From a virus, in the IMG/VR virus record IMGVR_UViG_3300009409_000561, positions 1-23,784 of that record: 23,784 bases of DNA; one strand, written 5' to 3'. Made by a program: the position numbers and the translations under genes. Shown here in pieces: positions 2,471 to 22,650 of the stretch; the stretch's first letter is position 1; each line of letters starts with the position of its first letter. A model generated the notes under the pieces. It saw nothing but the letters and a program-made list of their open reading frames with translations, was not told where the DNA came from and made no database searches.

Positions 2471-3991
2471 ATGGCTCTAGAACTTTTTGGATTTCGTATT
2501 GGTAAGGCAGAAGAGCAGAAGGATAGTGTTGTATCTTTTGCACCGCCTGAGCCAGATGATGGATCACTTACTATAGCACAAGGTGGTGTCTTTGGCACCA
2601 CTATTGATCTTGAGGGTACAGCTAAGAATGAAAGCGCCCTCATTACAAAATATCGTGAAATGCTTTTGCAGCCTGAGTGCGAAAAAGCTATTGATGATAT
2701 CGTAAATGAAGCTATTGTGGGAGATAATAAAGAACAGTCTGTGCAGATTATTCTGGAAGATACTGAACTTCCTAAGAGCATTAAGACTAAAATTAATGAA
2801 GAGTTTGATACTGTACTCTCATTACTGAATTTTAACACGAAATCATACAGTATATTCAGAGATTGGTATGTAGATGGTCGTCTATATTACCATGTTATGA
2901 TTGATACTAAGAACCCAAGGGCTGGTATTAAAGAACTAAGATATATTGATCCTCGAAAAATTAAAAAGATTCGCTCAGAAAAACGAGATAATAATAACCC
3001 AAATCAAACAAATAAAACAGTTATAAACAAAAAATACGACGAATATTTTATATACCAGCCTACTGGTCTTGGAACAAACACTGAAGGCATTAAGATCGCA
3101 GTTGATTCTATTGCTTATTCTCACTCTGGAGTTCTTGATCAGCGAAATTATATGGTTCTATCGTATCTACATAAAGCGATTAAGCCACTCAATCAGTTAC
3201 GTATGCTAGAAGATGCAACAGTCATTTATCGACTAGCAAGAGCGCCAGAGCGCCGCATTTTCTATATTGATGTTGGTAATTTGCCTAAGGGTAAAGCAGA
3301 ACAATATCTCCGCGACATGATGGCCAAGCATAAAAATAAGCTTGTGTATGATGCAGAGACAGGCGCAGTGCGCGATGATCGTAAATTTCTGACGATGCTA
3401 GAAGACTATTGGTTGCCTCGACGCGACGGCGGCCGCGGAACTGAAATTACTACGCTACCTGGTGGTCAGAATTTAGGTGAAATAGAAGATGTTTTGTACT
3501 TCAGAAAGAAACTCTATGAGTCTCTTAACGTACCAACATCACGCTTAGAAGCAGATGGTCAGTTTAATATGGGCCGATCATCCGAAATTACACGAGATGA
3601 ATTGAAATTCTCTAAGTTTGTTTTCCGTCTTAGGCAGAAATTCTCTGAAATGTTCTTTATTATCCTAGAGAAGCAGTTGCTACTCAAAGGAATAATGACG
3701 AAACAAGAATGGAACGATATTAAAGACAAAATCTATTTTGATTATATCGAAGATAATCATTTTGCAGAACTTAAAGAAGCAGAGATTATTCAAAATAGAT
3801 TGACTGTTTTAGCTGATGCTGATCAATATGCTGGTAAATACTTCTCTGATACGTGGATTAGAAAGAATGTTTTGATGATGACAGAGGATGAAATAGAAGA
3901 TATTAAGAAACAGATTGAAGATGAAGAGCCTGAAGACGATGGAGAAGACGATGAGGACTCTGAAAATGATTTTGAAAGTAAACAACTATAA
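2471..3991 (+). CDS. 20: Portal vertex protein gp20
   Basis: Dodecameric portal at the unique head vertex: nucleates prohead assembly, passes DNA during packaging and docks the tail. It has 506 residues (T4 gp20 has 524). Visible family features are the DWYVDGRLYYHVMID segment, IKELRYIDPRKIKKI, the RLARAPERRIFYIDVGNLPKGKAEQYL block and the FRKKLYESLNVPTSRLE region of the crown and clip. The C-terminus is a strongly acidic tail (about residues 470-500, repeated D/E), common in these portals. Start ATG follows AAGGGATATAAA. The order after tube and before the prohead core genes is canonical. Confidence 0.95.
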   Translation: MALELFGFRIGKAEEQKDSVVSFAPPEPDDGSLTIAQGGVFGTTIDLEGTAKNESALITKYREMLLQPECEKAIDDIVNEAIVGDNKEQSVQIILEDTELPKSIKTKINEEFDTVLSLLNFNTKSYSIFRDWYVDGRLYYHVMIDTKNPRAGIKELRYIDPRKIKKIRSEKRDNNNPNQTNKTVINKKYDEYFIYQPTGLGTNTEGIKIAVDSIAYSHSGVLDQRNYMVLSYLHKAIKPLNQLRMLEDATVIYRLARAPERRIFYIDVGNLPKGKAEQYLRDMMAKHKNKLVYDAETGAVRDDRKFLTMLEDYWLPRRDGGRGTEITTLPGGQNLGEIEDVLYFRKKLYESLNVPTSRLEADGQFNMGRSSEITRDELKFSKFVFRLRQKFSEMFFIILEKQLLLKGIMTKQEWNDIKDKIYFDYIEDNHFAELKEAEIIQNRLTVLADADQYAGKYFSDTWIRKNVLMMTEDEIEDIKKQIEDEEPEDDGEDDEDSENDFESKQL

Positions 3992-11859: not shown

Positions 11860-12253
11860 TGGAGACACCATTGTCGGTGATCTCATTTCTGAAAATGAAG
11901 AGTGCATCACTTTAAATAATCCACTAGAACTTCAGATGGTTAATAATCCAATGGCAGGTTCTGGTCTAATGTCTATGTATTGGCTTCCTATAGATACTGA
12001 GGTTTTTCATGTTGACATTAGACAGCAACATGTGATAGTATTGTCTGAAGCGCCGCATGAGATAGAGATTTTTTATAAAAACTCTCTTTCTAATTTTATA
12101 AAAAAACAACATCTGATGCATCAATCGCTTGAAGATTATGTAGGGGTGAATGTTCCTAAGAATGACAGAACGAGAGAAGAAGAATATGAGGATATTAGAC
12201 AGAAGGCTCTTCTCTATGCTCTTCATGGCGCAAACACAAGTATTATACACTGA
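11834..12253 (+). CDS. Conserved phage protein, possibly Sm-like N-terminus
   Basis: A 139-residue acidic protein of unknown function. The first 75 residues form short beta strands in the pattern IHILKLSNGDTIVGDLISENEECITLNNPLEL, with a later strand YWLPIDTEVFHVDIRQQHVIVL; this resembles the small Sm/LSm-like barrels seen in T4-superfamily phage proteins, but no decisive motif is visible. The second half is helical and charged (ppossible amphipathic KNSLSNFIKKQHLMHQSLED). Start ATG has AAGG 8 nt upstream and lies inside the uvsW 3' end. It sits directly before the late sigma factor gene, so a link to transcription or RNA handling is possible but unproven. Confidence 0.7.
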   Translation: MIHILKLSNGDTIVGDLISENEECITLNNPLELQMVNNPMAGSGLMSMYWLPIDTEVFHVDIRQQHVIVLSEAPHEIEIFYKNSLSNFIKKQHLMHQSLEDYVGVNVPKNDRTREEEYEDIRQKALLYALHGANTSIIH

Positions 12254-12271: not shown

Positions 12272-12865
12272 ATGGAACCTATTGTAAAAGTTGTAAAGCC
12301 GAAACGAGTAAAGCACGATTATGTAGATAACAAAATGTTTTTCGCTGCGATGCTAGAATATAAGAAAAGCGTTAAAGATGCAGAAGAGTGTGATGGTGTT
12401 CGGCCTATCATGCCCAATTATGTTGCTGAATGTATTATGAAGATTGCGACTCATCTATCTCATAAGCCAAATTTTGTCAACTACACCTTTCGTGAAGATA
12501 TGATTAGCGATGGTATCGAGAACTGTCTTCAGTATGTAGACAATTTTGATCCTGCTAAATCAAATAATCCTTTTGCATATTTCACACAAATCATATACTT
12601 CGCTTTCATTCGCAGAATTCAGAAAGAGAAGAAGCAGCTATACATCAAATATAAAGCAACAGAGAATGCAAACGTATTTGATATGACTGCGGGAAAACAG
12701 CAGCACGATGCAGCCACTACGTACAATACATCTATTAAATCTGGTGGGTGGTCACAAGATTATATGTCAGAGTTCGTTGAGAACTTTGAAGAGACTAAAA
12801 GAAAGAAAAGGATCAAAAAGGGTGTTAGTCTAGATAGGTTGATAGATGATGATCTTGAGGCGTGA
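12272..12865 (+). CDS. 55: Late-promoter sigma factor gp55
   Basis: Directs host RNA polymerase to late promoters (TATAAATA). It has 197 residues (T4 gp55 185). The diagnostic sigma region 2-like core reads DNFDPAKSNNPFAYFTQIIYFAFIRRIQKEKKQLY (about residues 90-124), with the preceding NYTFREDMISDGIENCL helix. The C-terminus is hydrophobic-acidic (VSLDRLIDDD), the type of short tail by which T4 late factors contact the sliding clamp; that role is inferred. RBS AAAGGA 8 nt before ATG. The gp47 gene starts 3 nt after its stop. Seven late-promoter boxes in this window are its expected targets. Confidence 0.95.
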   Translation: MEPIVKVVKPKRVKHDYVDNKMFFAAMLEYKKSVKDAEECDGVRPIMPNYVAECIMKIATHLSHKPNFVNYTFREDMISDGIENCLQYVDNFDPAKSNNPFAYFTQIIYFAFIRRIQKEKKQLYIKYKATENANVFDMTAGKQQHDAATTYNTSIKSGGWSQDYMSEFVENFEETKRKKRIKKGVSLDRLIDDDLEA

Positions 12866-18807: not shown

Positions 18808-20934
18808 TTAAGCAACCAGGCTGATGAACTTGGCTAGCATTACGCGGCTTTCTTTCCGCTTGGTGTTTGCTTTCTTGAAAGCCGTTCGTATTGCGCCCTT
18901 CTTGGCATCGCTGGACACTTCAATGTTAGTGTTAGAGGTATTAAGATCGGACCCACCAGAGATGCCGAAATATTCACTGTATCCGCTATTCGGAATAGAT
19001 ATGAATTTATCTTTCCGCAGTTTAGCCCACAGAGCATCAAAGTCACGGTAGCCTACGCCGAGTGACCGCCGGCCTGCCCTTTTGTTCTTAGATATAATAC
19101 GATATCCGATAACATTGGATTGCGTATTTTCTCGCAGAAGAAGCAGTAGATCATTCGTTAAATATCCTGGATCAGTAATAGCATAGGTCTTTTTTGTATC
19201 ACGATCAATGATATTATACTTATATGGACCACGCCGAATATAATATTGGTCCTCTCCATCAAGTTGAATGTTCATGGTGTTCGATTCGCCATCAGTAAGA
19301 AACACCGTATTGACTATATCAAGATTGTTAGATTTTTTGAACTCCTTGAATATAGAAATAGCAGCAACAATTGTAGCATCTAAAGGTGTTCCGCCTAAGT
19401 GGAAAACCCTTGGCACACCTTCAGTAATAGTATATGGACCGAACCGCGTATAATTATTGTACCGTTCGTTGTATGCTAAACCTGTTGTTAAGCAGATTTC
19501 TGACATTCGAACAAAATCTGACCGAGACATTTTGTTGTCGAATAATTCTAGAAGAATTAGATCCTTATTAATAAGAAGCATATCTTCAGTATTATTTTGC
19601 CGAGTTATATCTTGTTTGTCGCGGTGTGAGGTGAAGCCATAAACACGGAATGAAATATTGACTTGCCGACAGAACATCACCAGATTTAGAGTCTGTTCCA
19701 TCGTAGCATTGAAATCTTGAGCCATAGAGCCAGAGAAATCAATATACATCAACAAGCCGTGGTTCTTACCTTCAGGAACAACAGACATCTTTTTGAAAAT
19801 ATCATCGCTGTAACGATAGCTATTCATCTTCACAGGATCAATAACGCCAGTCTTAGCGGTAGTCGTGCGGGCATATTCAGTAGCCCGCTTCTTCATTTCG
19901 AATTCCTTGACTAGGTAATTGATCGTTGGTTTGTTATTCACCCGAAACTTTTTGAGGAGGTCTTTACCGACCGAGGCGACCTCATCTGGCTCAGAATAGT
20001 ACCCATCAAAATCTTTGATAATATCTTTATATGAAGTCTTGAACTGATCGATATTTACATCATCTAGTTTCATATTATAGATATTGACGTTAGAATCATT
20101 TCCAAAGGTTTCTTCGATATTCTGGGCTAGCAATTCATCAGTTTTTGAATTGGGTTCCCAATCGTCTCCACCTTTATCATCACCCGATGCATCGTTTTCA
20201 GATTCATCGTTTTCAGATTCATCATCATCATCAGTATCACCATCAGCGAAATTATCTGATAACTCTTCTTCCTCATCACCCTGTTCATTGGTGATTTCTT
20301 CACCAGCGCCATCTGTCATAGCATCAGGATCAAATTCGTTTTCCTCAGCTTCATTTTCATCTTTTTCTTTTTCAGCATCACCTTTCGCTTTTTCGTAGAG
20401 TCGATCAGCGATATCAACTACGTTCTCCCACGTTTCGGCCGCTTCGATTTCAGCGAACCATGCATCTTCTTCTTTGGAGAATGTGACACCAGCAGACTGC
20501 CCGCACTTGAAAGCGACATTAAGCCGATCAATCAGATCATATGCGTTGATGGAAGTCCGGCTCTTACCGAAGAAACCATCATCCAACATCTTATTATAAG
20601 AACGAATGAAATTGCGCCGAAGACCAGGATACCGCCGAAGCATCAGCTTTTCGATCCGAGCGTCTTCGACCACGTTGAGATAAGATTTATATCCCTTAGT
20701 CTTACCGTCGATCTCATCCTTCCAACCCTCTGGAGGAGTGAATAGAGCGTGACCAACTTCATGCCCGGTAAGGTGATCATTCTGATCCTCGGTCATATCC
20801 TTCCAGTTGGGAAGGGTTAGCGTCCGAGCCATTAGATCAAACGATGCGGTGGGCACGTTCTTTTTGACGACCGTAAGATCCTCTGTCGCCAAAAGCTTGG
20901 CTAGAGTCTCTTTCGATTTAAACTGTGTAGTCAT
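18808..20934 (-). CDS. CobT-like VWA protein with N-terminal HExxH motif
   Basis: A 708-residue multi-domain protein of the CobT/VWA kind found in phages with CobS. From the N-terminus: a possible metallopeptidase-type motif TGHEVGHALF (His58, Glu59, His62) with a candidate third ligand in NVVEDARIE (Glu90); helical region; highly acidic linker (about 185-260); and a C-terminal VWA domain with a complete MIDAS: DFSGSM (399-404), Thr516 in GGTPLDAT, and Asp548 in LTDGES. The ATG at 20934 lies 2 nt after the stop of the preceding gene, so translation is coupled; TTG 20952 is possible. Its ATPase partner is probably the CobS-like protein at 22683. True cobalt chelation is doubtful, since no cobalamin genes are seen. 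Other options: MoxR/VWA-type chaperone or protein-remodelling system. Confidence 0.85.
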   Translation of the reverse strand: MTTQFKSKETLAKLLATEDLTVVKKNVPTASFDLMARTLTLPNWKDMTEDQNDHLTGHEVGHALFTPPEGWKDEIDGKTKGYKSYLNVVEDARIEKLMLRRYPGLRRNFIRSYNKMLDDGFFGKSRTSINAYDLIDRLNVAFKCGQSAGVTFSKEEDAWFAEIEAAETWENVVDIADRLYEKAKGDAEKEKDENEAEENEFDPDAMTDGAGEEITNEQGDEEEELSDNFADGDTDDDDESENDESENDASGDDKGGDDWEPNSKTDELLAQNIEETFGNDSNVNIYNMKLDDVNIDQFKTSYKDIIKDFDGYYSEPDEVASVGKDLLKKFRVNNKPTINYLVKEFEMKKRATEYARTTTAKTGVIDPVKMNSYRYSDDIFKKMSVVPEGKNHGLLMYIDFSGSMAQDFNATMEQTLNLVMFCRQVNISFRVYGFTSHRDKQDITRQNNTEDMLLINKDLILLELFDNKMSRSDFVRMSEICLTTGLAYNERYNNYTRFGPYTITEGVPRVFHLGGTPLDATIVAAISIFKEFKKSNNLDIVNTVFLTDGESNTMNIQLDGEDQYYIRRGPYKYNIIDRDTKKTYAITDPGYLTNDLLLLLRENTQSNVIGYRIISKNKRAGRRSLGVGYRDFDALWAKLRKDKFISIPNSGYSEYFGISGGSDLNTSNTNIEVSSDAKKGAIRTAFKKANTKRKESRVMLAKFISLVA
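20191..20220. repeat. 15-bp tandem duplication in the acidic linker of the VWA gene
   Basis: Two perfect adjacent copies of ATCGTTTTCAGATTC, followed by an ATC run. In the protein this encodes repeated Asp-Glu-Ser-Glu-Asn units in the disordered linker. It points to recent slippage and length variation in this part of the gene. Confidence 0.9.
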
Positions 20935-20936
20935 AT

Positions 20937-21278
20937 TCAAGCCCCAGTCCAAGCAACGGTGTAACCGCCTTCAATGATGTTTCCACGGGCGAAGTTCCGA
21001 GTAGGGGCTGCCCAGCCAGCGGCTTTCAGGATATCGCCCTTTTTGAACTTCTTATCGTTGTCAGTATTGACAACAAAGCCCCAAACGCCACCACGTTCTC
21101 TGGTGATTTTGATGTACTTGGTTCCCGCCTTGTAGGAAATGCCTTCATCGAATTCGATGATCATCTTTTTGTTGATATCGGTGAGGGTGTTTAGGCCCTT
21201 GATATCAGCGCACCGCGTCGTCCAGGTAAGATAGTCTGCTTTGATGTTTTCGATCAGGGCAGTCATTTCGGTATTCAT
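20937..21278 (-). CDS. Unknown protein, 113 aa, first gene of the leftward operon
   Basis: No family recognised. It has 113 residues from ATG 21278, chosen because AGAGAGAG lies about 7 nt upstream; the in-frame ATG 21302 would be almost at the predicted transcription start. The first 45 residues are helical, and the rest looks beta-rich: KMIIEFDEGISYKAGTKYI, then VWGFVVNTD, a KFKKGDILKAAGW turn and a Gly-rich terminal region. It stands directly behind the leftward early promoter, and its stop is 2 nt from the VWA gene start, so the two are co-transcribed and coupled. An early function, or a partner of the VWA protein, is inferred from position only. Confidence 0.75.
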   Translation of the reverse strand: MNTEMTALIENIKADYLTWTTRCADIKGLNTLTDINKKMIIEFDEGISYKAGTKYIKITRERGGVWGFVVNTDNDKKFKKGDILKAAGWAAPTRNFARGNIIEGGYTVAWTGA

Positions 21279-21310
21279 ATCAATCTCTCTCTGTTTTCTC
21301 ATTATAACTA

Positions 21311-21339
21311 AGTATACTTCATATGCAGCCCAAAGTCAA
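21311..21339 (-). promoter_or_regulatory. Leftward early promoter for the VWA operon
   Basis: On the minus strand: TTGACT (plus 21334-21339), 17-nt spacer beginning TTGGG, TATACT (plus 21311-21316), giving a transcription start near 21304. The -35 is directly preceded by the left arm of the inverted repeat. It mirrors the promoter at 21472. Confidence 0.85.
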
Positions 21340-21341
21340 GA

Positions 21342-21469
21342 AAAATCGTACCTGCTAAGTCATTGATATATAACGATACCTGAAATTAGATCGATTCGCT
21401 TATAAAATCAACATTATCAAATTATTTTTGAGTTTTGTTTAGAATCAATGACTTAGCAGGTACGATTTT
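21342..21469. repeat. 26-bp perfect inverted repeat between divergent early promoters
   Basis: Arms at 21342-21367 and 21444-21469 are perfect reverse complements (core CGTACCTGCTAAGTCATTGA on the left arm), separated by a 76-bp AT-rich spacer. Allowing one mismatch, homology continues outward to 21337 and 21474, reaching into the -35 box on each side. In both directions the same element therefore sits immediately upstream of a promoter. It looks like a paired binding site for an activator or repressor, or possibly part of a replication origin. Confidence 0.9.
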
Positions 21470-21471
21470 CC

Positions 21472-21500
21472 TTGCATTTGGCAATCACCTGTGCTATTAT
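21472..21500 (+). promoter_or_regulatory. Rightward early promoter
   Basis: TTGCAT (21472-21477), 17-nt spacer with TTGG and CCTGTGC, TATTAT (21495-21500), extended -10 TGC. Predicted transcription start about 21507. The -35 abuts the right arm of the inverted repeat. TGTGCTATTAT is identical to the promoter at 9105. Confidence 0.85.
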
Positions 21501-21530
21501 CTATATATAATGAGAAATAAGGAAATGACT

Positions 21531-21686
21531 ATGAAGATTAAAGAAGGCGACTTGATTACCGAAGGCGGCATATCTTATGTCGTAGAAAAAGATGAAGAGG
21601 GCACCCTGTGGGGTGTATCTAATAACGCAGAATACGAGATCGAATTGAGTGAAGATTTCGTCCCTGATGCGCTATTTTCTGCTTGA
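21531..21686 (+). CDS. Unknown small early protein, 51 aa
   Basis: A 51-residue acidic protein, MKIKEGDLITEGGISYVVEK and onward. It has a simple beta pattern (KEGDLI, ISYVVEKDEEGTLWGVS, YEIELSEDFV) resembling small SH3-like or KOW-type barrels, with no catalytic residues visible. Start at 21531 is chosen because AAGGAA lies 6 nt upstream; ATG codons at 21510 and 21525 are in frame but lack a properly placed RBS. It is the first gene after the rightward early promoter, so expressed at once after infection. Its stop codon lies inside the -35 of the next promoter. Confidence 0.7.
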   Translation: MKIKEGDLITEGGISYVVEKDEEGTLWGVSNNAEYEIELSEDFVPDALFSA

Positions 21687-21711
21687 CATTGGGATCTACC
21701 TGTGTTAGGAT
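21683..21711 (+). promoter_or_regulatory. Early promoter, repeated cassette copy 1
   Basis: TTGACA (21683-21688), 17-nt spacer, TAGGAT (21706-21711). The -35 overlaps the preceding stop codon. The stretch TTGACATTGGGATCTACCT is identical to that at 22622, and the downstream leader with GATGAT and AGAGAGAG is also shared. Confidence 0.88.
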
Positions 21712-21743: not shown

Positions 21744-21914
21744 ATGACTAAGCTTGAAGAGCACCTTGCATTGACGAAACTCACTAAGATGGATGAGATG
21801 ACGTTGATGATGGAGCAACTAGCTGGAGATGTCCGGCTACTGTCCAGTGCATTGCAAGACGCTGTGACAACCGTTGAACGATTGACAGCCGCTGACGTGG
21901 TTAACAATAAATGA
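21744..21914 (+). CDS. Unknown small helical protein, 56 aa
   Basis: A 56-residue protein from ATG 21744, with AGAGAGAG about 7 nt upstream; the longer frame to 21702 is rejected because it would begin upstream of the transcription start. Apparently one long amphipathic helix: MTKLEEHLALTKLTKMDEM, then MMEQLAGDVRLLSSALQDA and ERLTAADVV, with heptad-like Leu/Met spacing suggesting a coiled coil or small oligomer. It shares an ATGA junction with dCMP deaminase, so the two are translationally coupled. Function unknown; could be a small regulator or host-takeover factor. Confidence 0.7.
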   Translation: MTKLEEHLALTKLTKMDEMTLMMEQLAGDVRLLSSALQDAVTTVERLTAADVVNNK

Positions 21915-22369
21915 AAAATAAACATATCCACGCGCATATGAAGTCTGCATTTAATTATGCAGAATGCAGCACCGCCAAGAAACTCAAGGTGGGCTGTGTT
22001 CTGGTCAAAGATGACCGCATCATATCGATCGGATATAACGGCATGCCCAGTGGATGGTCTAACGAGTGTGAAACACTTTCATTCTGGGCAGAAGATGGTA
22101 AGCAACTTCTGAACCAGGTCTTGATTACCAAACCAGAAGTTCTACATGCAGAAGAAAATGCTATCACCAAGCTTGCTAGGAGCACTGAGTCGGGCGAGGG
22201 CGCAACAGCATTTATCACACACGCGCCATGCATGACCTGTGCTAAACTAATGCATGGTTCTGGTATAATCGAGGTATTCTATGTGTATTCATATAGAGAC
22301 AACTCTGGGCTAGATTTTTTGAAGAAATGTGGCGTGAAATTAACAAAGATTGAAGGAGTTTGGAAATGA
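21911..22369 (+). CDS. cd: dCMP deaminase
   Basis: Zinc enzyme converting dCMP to dUMP, feeding thymidylate synthesis for phage DNA. It has 152 residues. The zinc site is complete: HAEENA (His79, with catalytic Glu81) and PCMTC (106-110, Cys107 and Cys110). Other typical parts are KVGCVLVKDDRIISIGYNGMP and the C-terminal FLKKCGVKLTKIE. T4 Cd is 193 aa; this is a shorter version without the extra T4 insertion. Start overlaps the previous gene (ATGA) and its stop overlaps the next start (ATGA), making a coupled set of three genes under the promoter at 21683. Confidence 0.95.
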   Translation: MKNKHIHAHMKSAFNYAECSTAKKLKVGCVLVKDDRIISIGYNGMPSGWSNECETLSFWAEDGKQLLNQVLITKPEVLHAEENAITKLARSTESGEGATAFITHAPCMTCAKLMHGSGIIEVFYVYSYRDNSGLDFLKKCGVKLTKIEGVWK

Positions 22370-22621: not shown

Positions 22622-22650
22622 TTGACATTGGGATCTACCTATGCTAAGAT
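22622..22650 (+). promoter_or_regulatory. Early promoter, repeated cassette copy 2, before cobS
   Basis: TTGACA (22622-22627), 17-nt spacer ending TATGC, TAAGAT (22645-22650), extended -10 TGC. Almost the same cassette as at 21683, including the GATGAT and AGAGAGAG leader that provides the RBS for the CobS-like gene at 22683. Confidence 0.88.

Follow-up and report, generated by a model that had tools for sequence, protein, structure and literature searches.

Divergent promoters of an uncultured T4-like phage are each preceded by an IHF-type site in a recurrent, helix-phased module

The region between two divergent operons of an uncultured T4-like phage probably holds, as judged from its sequence, two outward-facing copies of a sigma-70 early promoter module assisted by IHF. 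It was analysed within a viral DNA stretch of 23,784 nucleotides (IMG/VR record IMGVR_UViG_3300009409_000561, positions 1 to 23,784), referred to below as the window. The predicted module begins upstream with an AT-rich flank, followed by an IHF site (WATCAANNNNTTR) and, after a linker of 16 nt, by a sigma-70 promoter. This arrangement recurs in other viral contigs with a fixed, helix-phased spacing between site and promoter, and the site is also present at attachment sites. The features of the region are the following:

18808 to 20952, minus strand: second gene of the left operon, a phrog_459 protein ('peptidase') of 714 aa
20937 to 21278, minus strand: first gene of the left operon, function not assigned
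21311 to 21339, minus strand: left sigma-70-type promoter, TTGACT-17-TATACT, a good match
21311 to 21391, minus strand: whole left module (24-nt AT-rich flank, IHF-type site, 16-nt linker, promoter); profile score 46.5, the best in the window
21342 to 21367, minus strand: left arm of the 26-bp inverted repeat, ATCAATGACTTAGCAGGTACGATTTT on the minus strand
21356 to 21368, minus strand: IHF-type site TATCAATGACTTA, matching WATCARNNNNTTR perfectly and set 16 nt ahead of the left −35 box
21368 to 21443, no strand: AT-rich core of 76 bp, 24% GC, containing the upstream flanks of both modules
21420 to 21500, plus strand: whole right module; profile score 37.3, the second best in the window
21443 to 21455, plus strand: IHF-type site AATCAATGACTTA, matching WATCARNNNNTTR perfectly and set 16 nt ahead of the right −35 box
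21444 to 21469, plus strand: right arm of the 26-bp inverted repeat, ATCAATGACTTAGCAGGTACGATTTT on the plus strand
21472 to 21500, plus strand: right sigma-70-type promoter, TTGCAT-17-TATTAT, with TG before the −10 box, a poor match
21531 to 21686, plus strand: first gene of the right operon, 51 aa, function not assigned
21911 to 22369, plus strand: dCMP deaminase gene of the right operon

Results

The divergent promoters and their genomic surroundings

The initial annotation had described two outward promoters of early type with identical 17-nt spacers. Both were found, with predicted starts at 21304 (left) and 21507 (right), and their spacers are identical in length (17) but not in sequence. 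By its sequence match, the right promoter is the weaker of the two. Two further good sigma-70-type promoters were seen in the window, TTGACA-17-TAGGAT at 21683–21711 and TTGACA-17-TAAGAT at 22622–22650, neither with an IHF-type site upstream.

The promoters lie within a T4-like genome, as T4-type early promoters would, the window coding for a tail sheath, tail tube, portal, head protease, scaffold and major head protein of T4 type, as well as a UvsW-type helicase, a late sigma factor and SbcCD-like subunits. An rIIA-like identity was rejected for the 714-aa phrog_459 protein, as it has no similarity to T4 rIIA. No nucleotide match to the window was found among 50,697 phage records, and the nearest UvsW proteins were those of Pelagibacter phage Mosig and Methylophilales phage Melnitz, at about 54% identity.

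An inverted repeat with an IHF-type site in each arm

The perfect inverted repeat reported for this region was confirmed, positions 21342–21367 and 21444–21469 being exact reverse complements over 26 bp, and so was the 76-bp AT-rich core between them, with its 24% GC against 39% window-wide. From base composition, about 2e-7 exact inverted pairs of 26 bp would be expected by chance in the whole window, and beyond the two arms no exact inverted repeat of at least 16 bp was detected in its 23.8 kb. The homology had also been said to run into the −35 boxes: each arm ends 2 bp short of them, and the likeness extends through CTTG and TTTGG. The reading as an RNA element was rejected, since no Rfam family matched.

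A second inverted repeat, of 12 bp, was observed at 21295–21306 and 21506–21517, covering both start regions (TATAATGAGAAA). As a similar leader also trails many of the modules seen in other contigs, the module may include the start region.

In each arm, the IHF consensus of E. coli, WATCARNNNNTTR (PMC8421141), is matched perfectly. The centres of the two cores lie at about −58 from the predicted starts. Strong IHF sites have an A-tract to the left of the consensus (PMC8421141), and A/T-rich DNA was found in that place at both arms, with 24-nt flank scores of 7.8 (right) and 5.4 (left), above the 3.9 that marks the top 1% of the window. When the window was searched with a profile derived from other phages, the two arm modules were its only hits, the next place scoring −4.3. 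No phage-encoded homologue of IHF or HU was detected in 21 records; therefore, it is the host IHF that would be used.

The arm in other viral contigs

A 21-base stretch of the arm was present in five other viral contigs, each time as a single copy, in the same orientation and ahead of a promoter. The initial annotation had asked whether in relatives the arm always touches a −35 box; in every relative found, it stands before one. The pairing of the arms did not follow the promoters in the same way: in the closest syntenic relative (L003), the left arm is gone but its promoter remains, as do the right arm and promoter, which is the outcome that the initial annotation had set against its own proposal. 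As the five other contigs are one-armed and L003 lacks the left arm, the symmetry is not borne out as what works here: one arm with its promoter makes up the unit, and pairing is a local event. The proposal that one factor could control both operons is supported, with host IHF, which had not been named, as the most likely factor. A palindrome specific to this locus was rejected in view of the lone arms at other loci, and a divergent pair flanked by one IHF-type site per side was found in the window and nowhere else in the set.

At 3070–3260 of L003, the two divergent promoters form inverted copies that are nearly identical between −35 and about +10, and one upstream arm is lost. This points to copying between promoters, which may explain the extra identity of the arms; recombination or recent copying of this kind probably accounts for their identity outside the IHF core. 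In another pair of contigs that are closely similar near the site, L004 and L007, an insertion of 10 bp, one helical turn, separates the two forms, so that the gap from site to −35 box is 26 in one and 16 in the other.

Most of the 41 matches to the 16-mer AATGACTTAGCAGGTA look like chance matches inside other genes. An unrelated GC-rich phage (L019 and L041, at about 2740–2770 in L041) has 28 bp (CTAATAAAATCAATGACTTAGCAGGTAC) in common with the arms of L005 and L006, in non-coding surroundings with repeated AACTTGCA-like words.

Phased site and promoter composites across viral contigs

Viral contigs were scanned for ATCAATGACTTA followed, after 4–30 nt, by TTGAC-18-TANNNT, and also with the site reversed, gaps above 30 lying outside the scan. 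At least 120 stretches were recovered with the site forward and at least 120 with it reversed, compared with a few expected by chance, an estimate that assumes tens of billions of bases in the collection. Among the matches listed, forward gaps of about 8, 16–17 and 26 dominate, with 12–13 and 22–25 empty, and reverse gaps of 19–21 and 29–30 dominate, so that the peaks stand one helical turn apart with almost nothing between them. The phasing of these listed gaps, R(10.5 bp), was 0.57–0.71, with p ranging from about 1e-19 to about 3e-5, the latter with the hardest deduplication; after strict removal of similar sequences, p was about 3e-5 for the forward set (n=32) and about 2e-8 for the reverse set (n=47). 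IHF-type sites therefore lie upstream of sigma-70 promoters on a preferred helical face, and the gap of 16 at both window promoters falls within this pattern.

In the gap-16 set, collected with the central NNNN free, the unfixed base before ATCAA was A or T in 63 of 66 sites, as the IHF consensus demands, and the flank was T/A-rich. The site centre prefers YRAC (TGAC in 22 of 66), a requirement that the E. coli consensus does not have. Most modules have a freely varying linker.

Proteins like those of the window or of Melnitz, at 80 bits or more, were found at 91 of 119 forward and 83 of 114 reverse composite loci, compared with 10 of 36 controls; at 200 bits, the counts were 65, 58 and 0, respectively. 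T4-like genes were thus present at about 75% of composite loci among the matches listed, and the IHF-type core also occurs in phages without detectable T4-like genes. In eight module-bearing records (about 360 kb), 17 of the 22 strict sites were at phased positions ahead of a promoter, and one 41-kb contig carried four composites.

As the composite loci were chosen by motif, their counts are uninformative on frequency per genome. Among 80 relatives chosen by the phrog_459 protein alone, the module was found in one, the L003 contig. With the strict spacer, T4, KVP40, Aeh1, Acj9, Mosig, HTVC008M, P-SSM2, phiM9, phiM12, Cr30, Melnitz and RcDurkin gave at most an isolated, chance-like match, and the T4 genome had no composite in either orientation; a looser spacer gave one weak candidate, in Melnitz. 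This bears out the remark that the feature has no T4 counterpart, and extends it, as far as convincing cases go, to the eleven other cultured phages. Therefore, the module is patchy in its distribution.

Two variant arrangements were observed. In L245 (3295–3407, with a like pattern in L266 and L273), a single IHF-type site lies between divergent promoters, at 15 and about 27 nt, so that one site could serve both. In L608, the contig of L300, tandem IHF-type sites 24 bp apart face the same promoter with gaps of 6 and 30, and this arrangement occurs twice (12131–12167 and 12503–12539).

The same site at tRNA and integrase junctions

A longer form of the site, AATAAAATCAATGACTTAGC, was present in 56 bacterial genomes (L051–L106), in 22 of which it directly follows a tRNA 3′ end, with tandem repeats after it in part of them. 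The next gene after the site is an integrase in L070 and, for a related form, in the viral contigs L132, L134 and L140. Several other neighbouring genes that were tested were not integrases; therefore, not every such site lies in an intact element. Together with L109, these records show AATAAAATCAATGACTTAGC to be widespread at integrative-element junctions, after tRNA 3′ ends.

In the lambda attachment site, the order is core, IHF site, arm repeats and integrase, and the lambda IHF site H′ occupies the same place as the AATAAAATCAATGACTTAGC-type sites between tRNA end and integrase. As the junctions match this order, the sequence is tied to IHF independently of promoters, and AATAAAATCAATGACTTAGC is probably the IHF site of integrative-element attachment sites. 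The arm resembles H′ and the tRNA-linked elements in having the same core (ATCAATGACTTA in the latter) with AT-rich DNA on its left, and differs from them in that their site serves site-specific recombination and not a promoter. The window itself was rejected as an attachment site, as it has no tRNA gene, nor an integrase among its scanned proteins.

Discussion

The factor acting at these promoters is, on the sequence evidence, most likely host IHF. This reading is favoured by the perfect consensus in each arm and the facing of arm and promoter in the five other contigs, by the phased gaps of the composites, at least 120 in each orientation, with the one-turn insertion between L004 and L007, and by the A or T before ATCAA, the selectivity of the profile for the two arm modules, the largely phased placing of strict sites before promoters and the tRNA/integrase sites. 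Against it were counted the loss of the left arm in L003 with its promoter kept and the single module among the 80 relatives chosen by protein.

In the mechanism that we infer, host IHF, already present when the phage DNA enters, would bind each site at about −58 and activate rather than repress. It would bend the DNA by about 160 degrees, as it does over about 35 bp (PMC8421141), and the bend would fold the upstream AT-rich flank back onto the RNA polymerase, probably onto its alpha subunits. Transcription would then start in both directions, early in infection.

It is unlikely that IHF, once bound, keeps the promoters repressed or delayed and has to be displaced first. Some promoters are indeed repressed by IHF, as in the case of an integrase promoter that it attenuates (PMC7286903); however, the site lies outside the −35/−10 region, and phasing in both orientations, at distances that would allow wrapping onto the polymerase, seems to fit assistance better than occlusion. 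An activator or repressor encoded by the phage, binding the arm to control several operons with the likeness to IHF being incidental, is improbable. IHF alone does not explain the arm, as its conservation extends past the IHF core (GCAGGTACGATTT) in six contigs, and the preference for YRAC at the central bases makes a related protein with its own preference possible. Yet the core is shared with tRNA attachment sites in unrelated bacteria and prophages, it turns up in phages that lack detectable T4-like genes, and the linker is free to vary in most modules, all of which speaks against a regulator of the phage's own.

The perfect identity of the arms might instead mark a recombination cassette, in which the promoters merely ride along as in the promoter early stem-loops (PeSLs) of T4-type phages. 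Similar cassettes shuffle genes in T4-like phages, according to work cited in PMC4503421, and in L003 it is the promoter cores, not the arms, that are near-identical inverted copies. This reading is nevertheless quite improbable, as there is no stem-loop terminator at the arms, no terminator-like site being found at 21300–21510 of the window, and phased spacing over divergent sequences needs a functional constraint. The initial annotation had also offered a replication origin, with paired protein sites around an AT-rich core. Paired arms, a 76-bp core of 24% GC and the action of IHF at oriC (PMC8421141) agree with it. An origin would, however, occupy one locus per genome, and what was found is single modules at unrelated loci before different genes, always tied to a −35 box, with four composites in a single 41-kb contig and the arm pair lost in L003; therefore, an origin is very unlikely.

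IHF-aided promoters are already known in phages from a few textbook cases (lambda pL, Mu Pe), and we know of no repeated module at Mu Pe. The IHF site of lambda pL lies at about −85. In lambda pL, as in the window, an IHF site precedes a strong sigma-70 early promoter, and folding of upstream DNA back to the polymerase is the proposed mechanism; lambda pL differs in being one promoter, in a temperate phage, and in the greater distance of its site, the recurring window module having its core at about −58 and a 16-nt linker. The use of IHF plus a distant UP element by lambda pL comes from 1998 work (cited in PMC2753651). At Mu Pe, an IHF site likewise aids early lytic transcription (PMC3820752), at one promoter of one phage. 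Activation of glpFK by IS5 requires both IHF and the correct DNA phase. The early promoters of T4 (PMC2988021, PMC1524935) share with the window host sigma-70 and A/T-rich DNA upstream of the −35 box, and differ in that they rely on UP elements directly upstream of it and that the T4 genome has no composite. PeSLs are similar in joining a conserved sequence to early promoters at several loci; they combine a promoter with a terminator stem-loop (cited in PMC4503421), whereas the window module has an IHF-type site and no stem-loop was seen.

No report of a recurring phased IHF module in T4-like phages was found in the literature covered, which excludes most subscription journals. As the module recurs in many uncultured T4-like phages, their early genes are probably switched on via a host DNA-bending protein. 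The broader claim, that a large uncultured T4-like group uses host IHF as a general helper of early promoters, in the form of a portable helix-phased module in either orientation, is evenly balanced; if it is true, host takeover in these phages would depend on a nucleoid protein, and their host range could be limited by IHF.

The module provides a sequence signature for locating early promoters of T4-like phages, AATAAAATCAATGACTTAGC a useful marker for island ends, and the spacings found in nature (about 8, 16 and 26 bp, in both orientations) a series for how a DNA bend aids RNA polymerase. The module also predicts that ihf mutants would resist or slow such phages. Repeated in a hundred or more viral contigs, a phased IHF promoter module would amount to a new rule for how common T4-like phages control their early genes.
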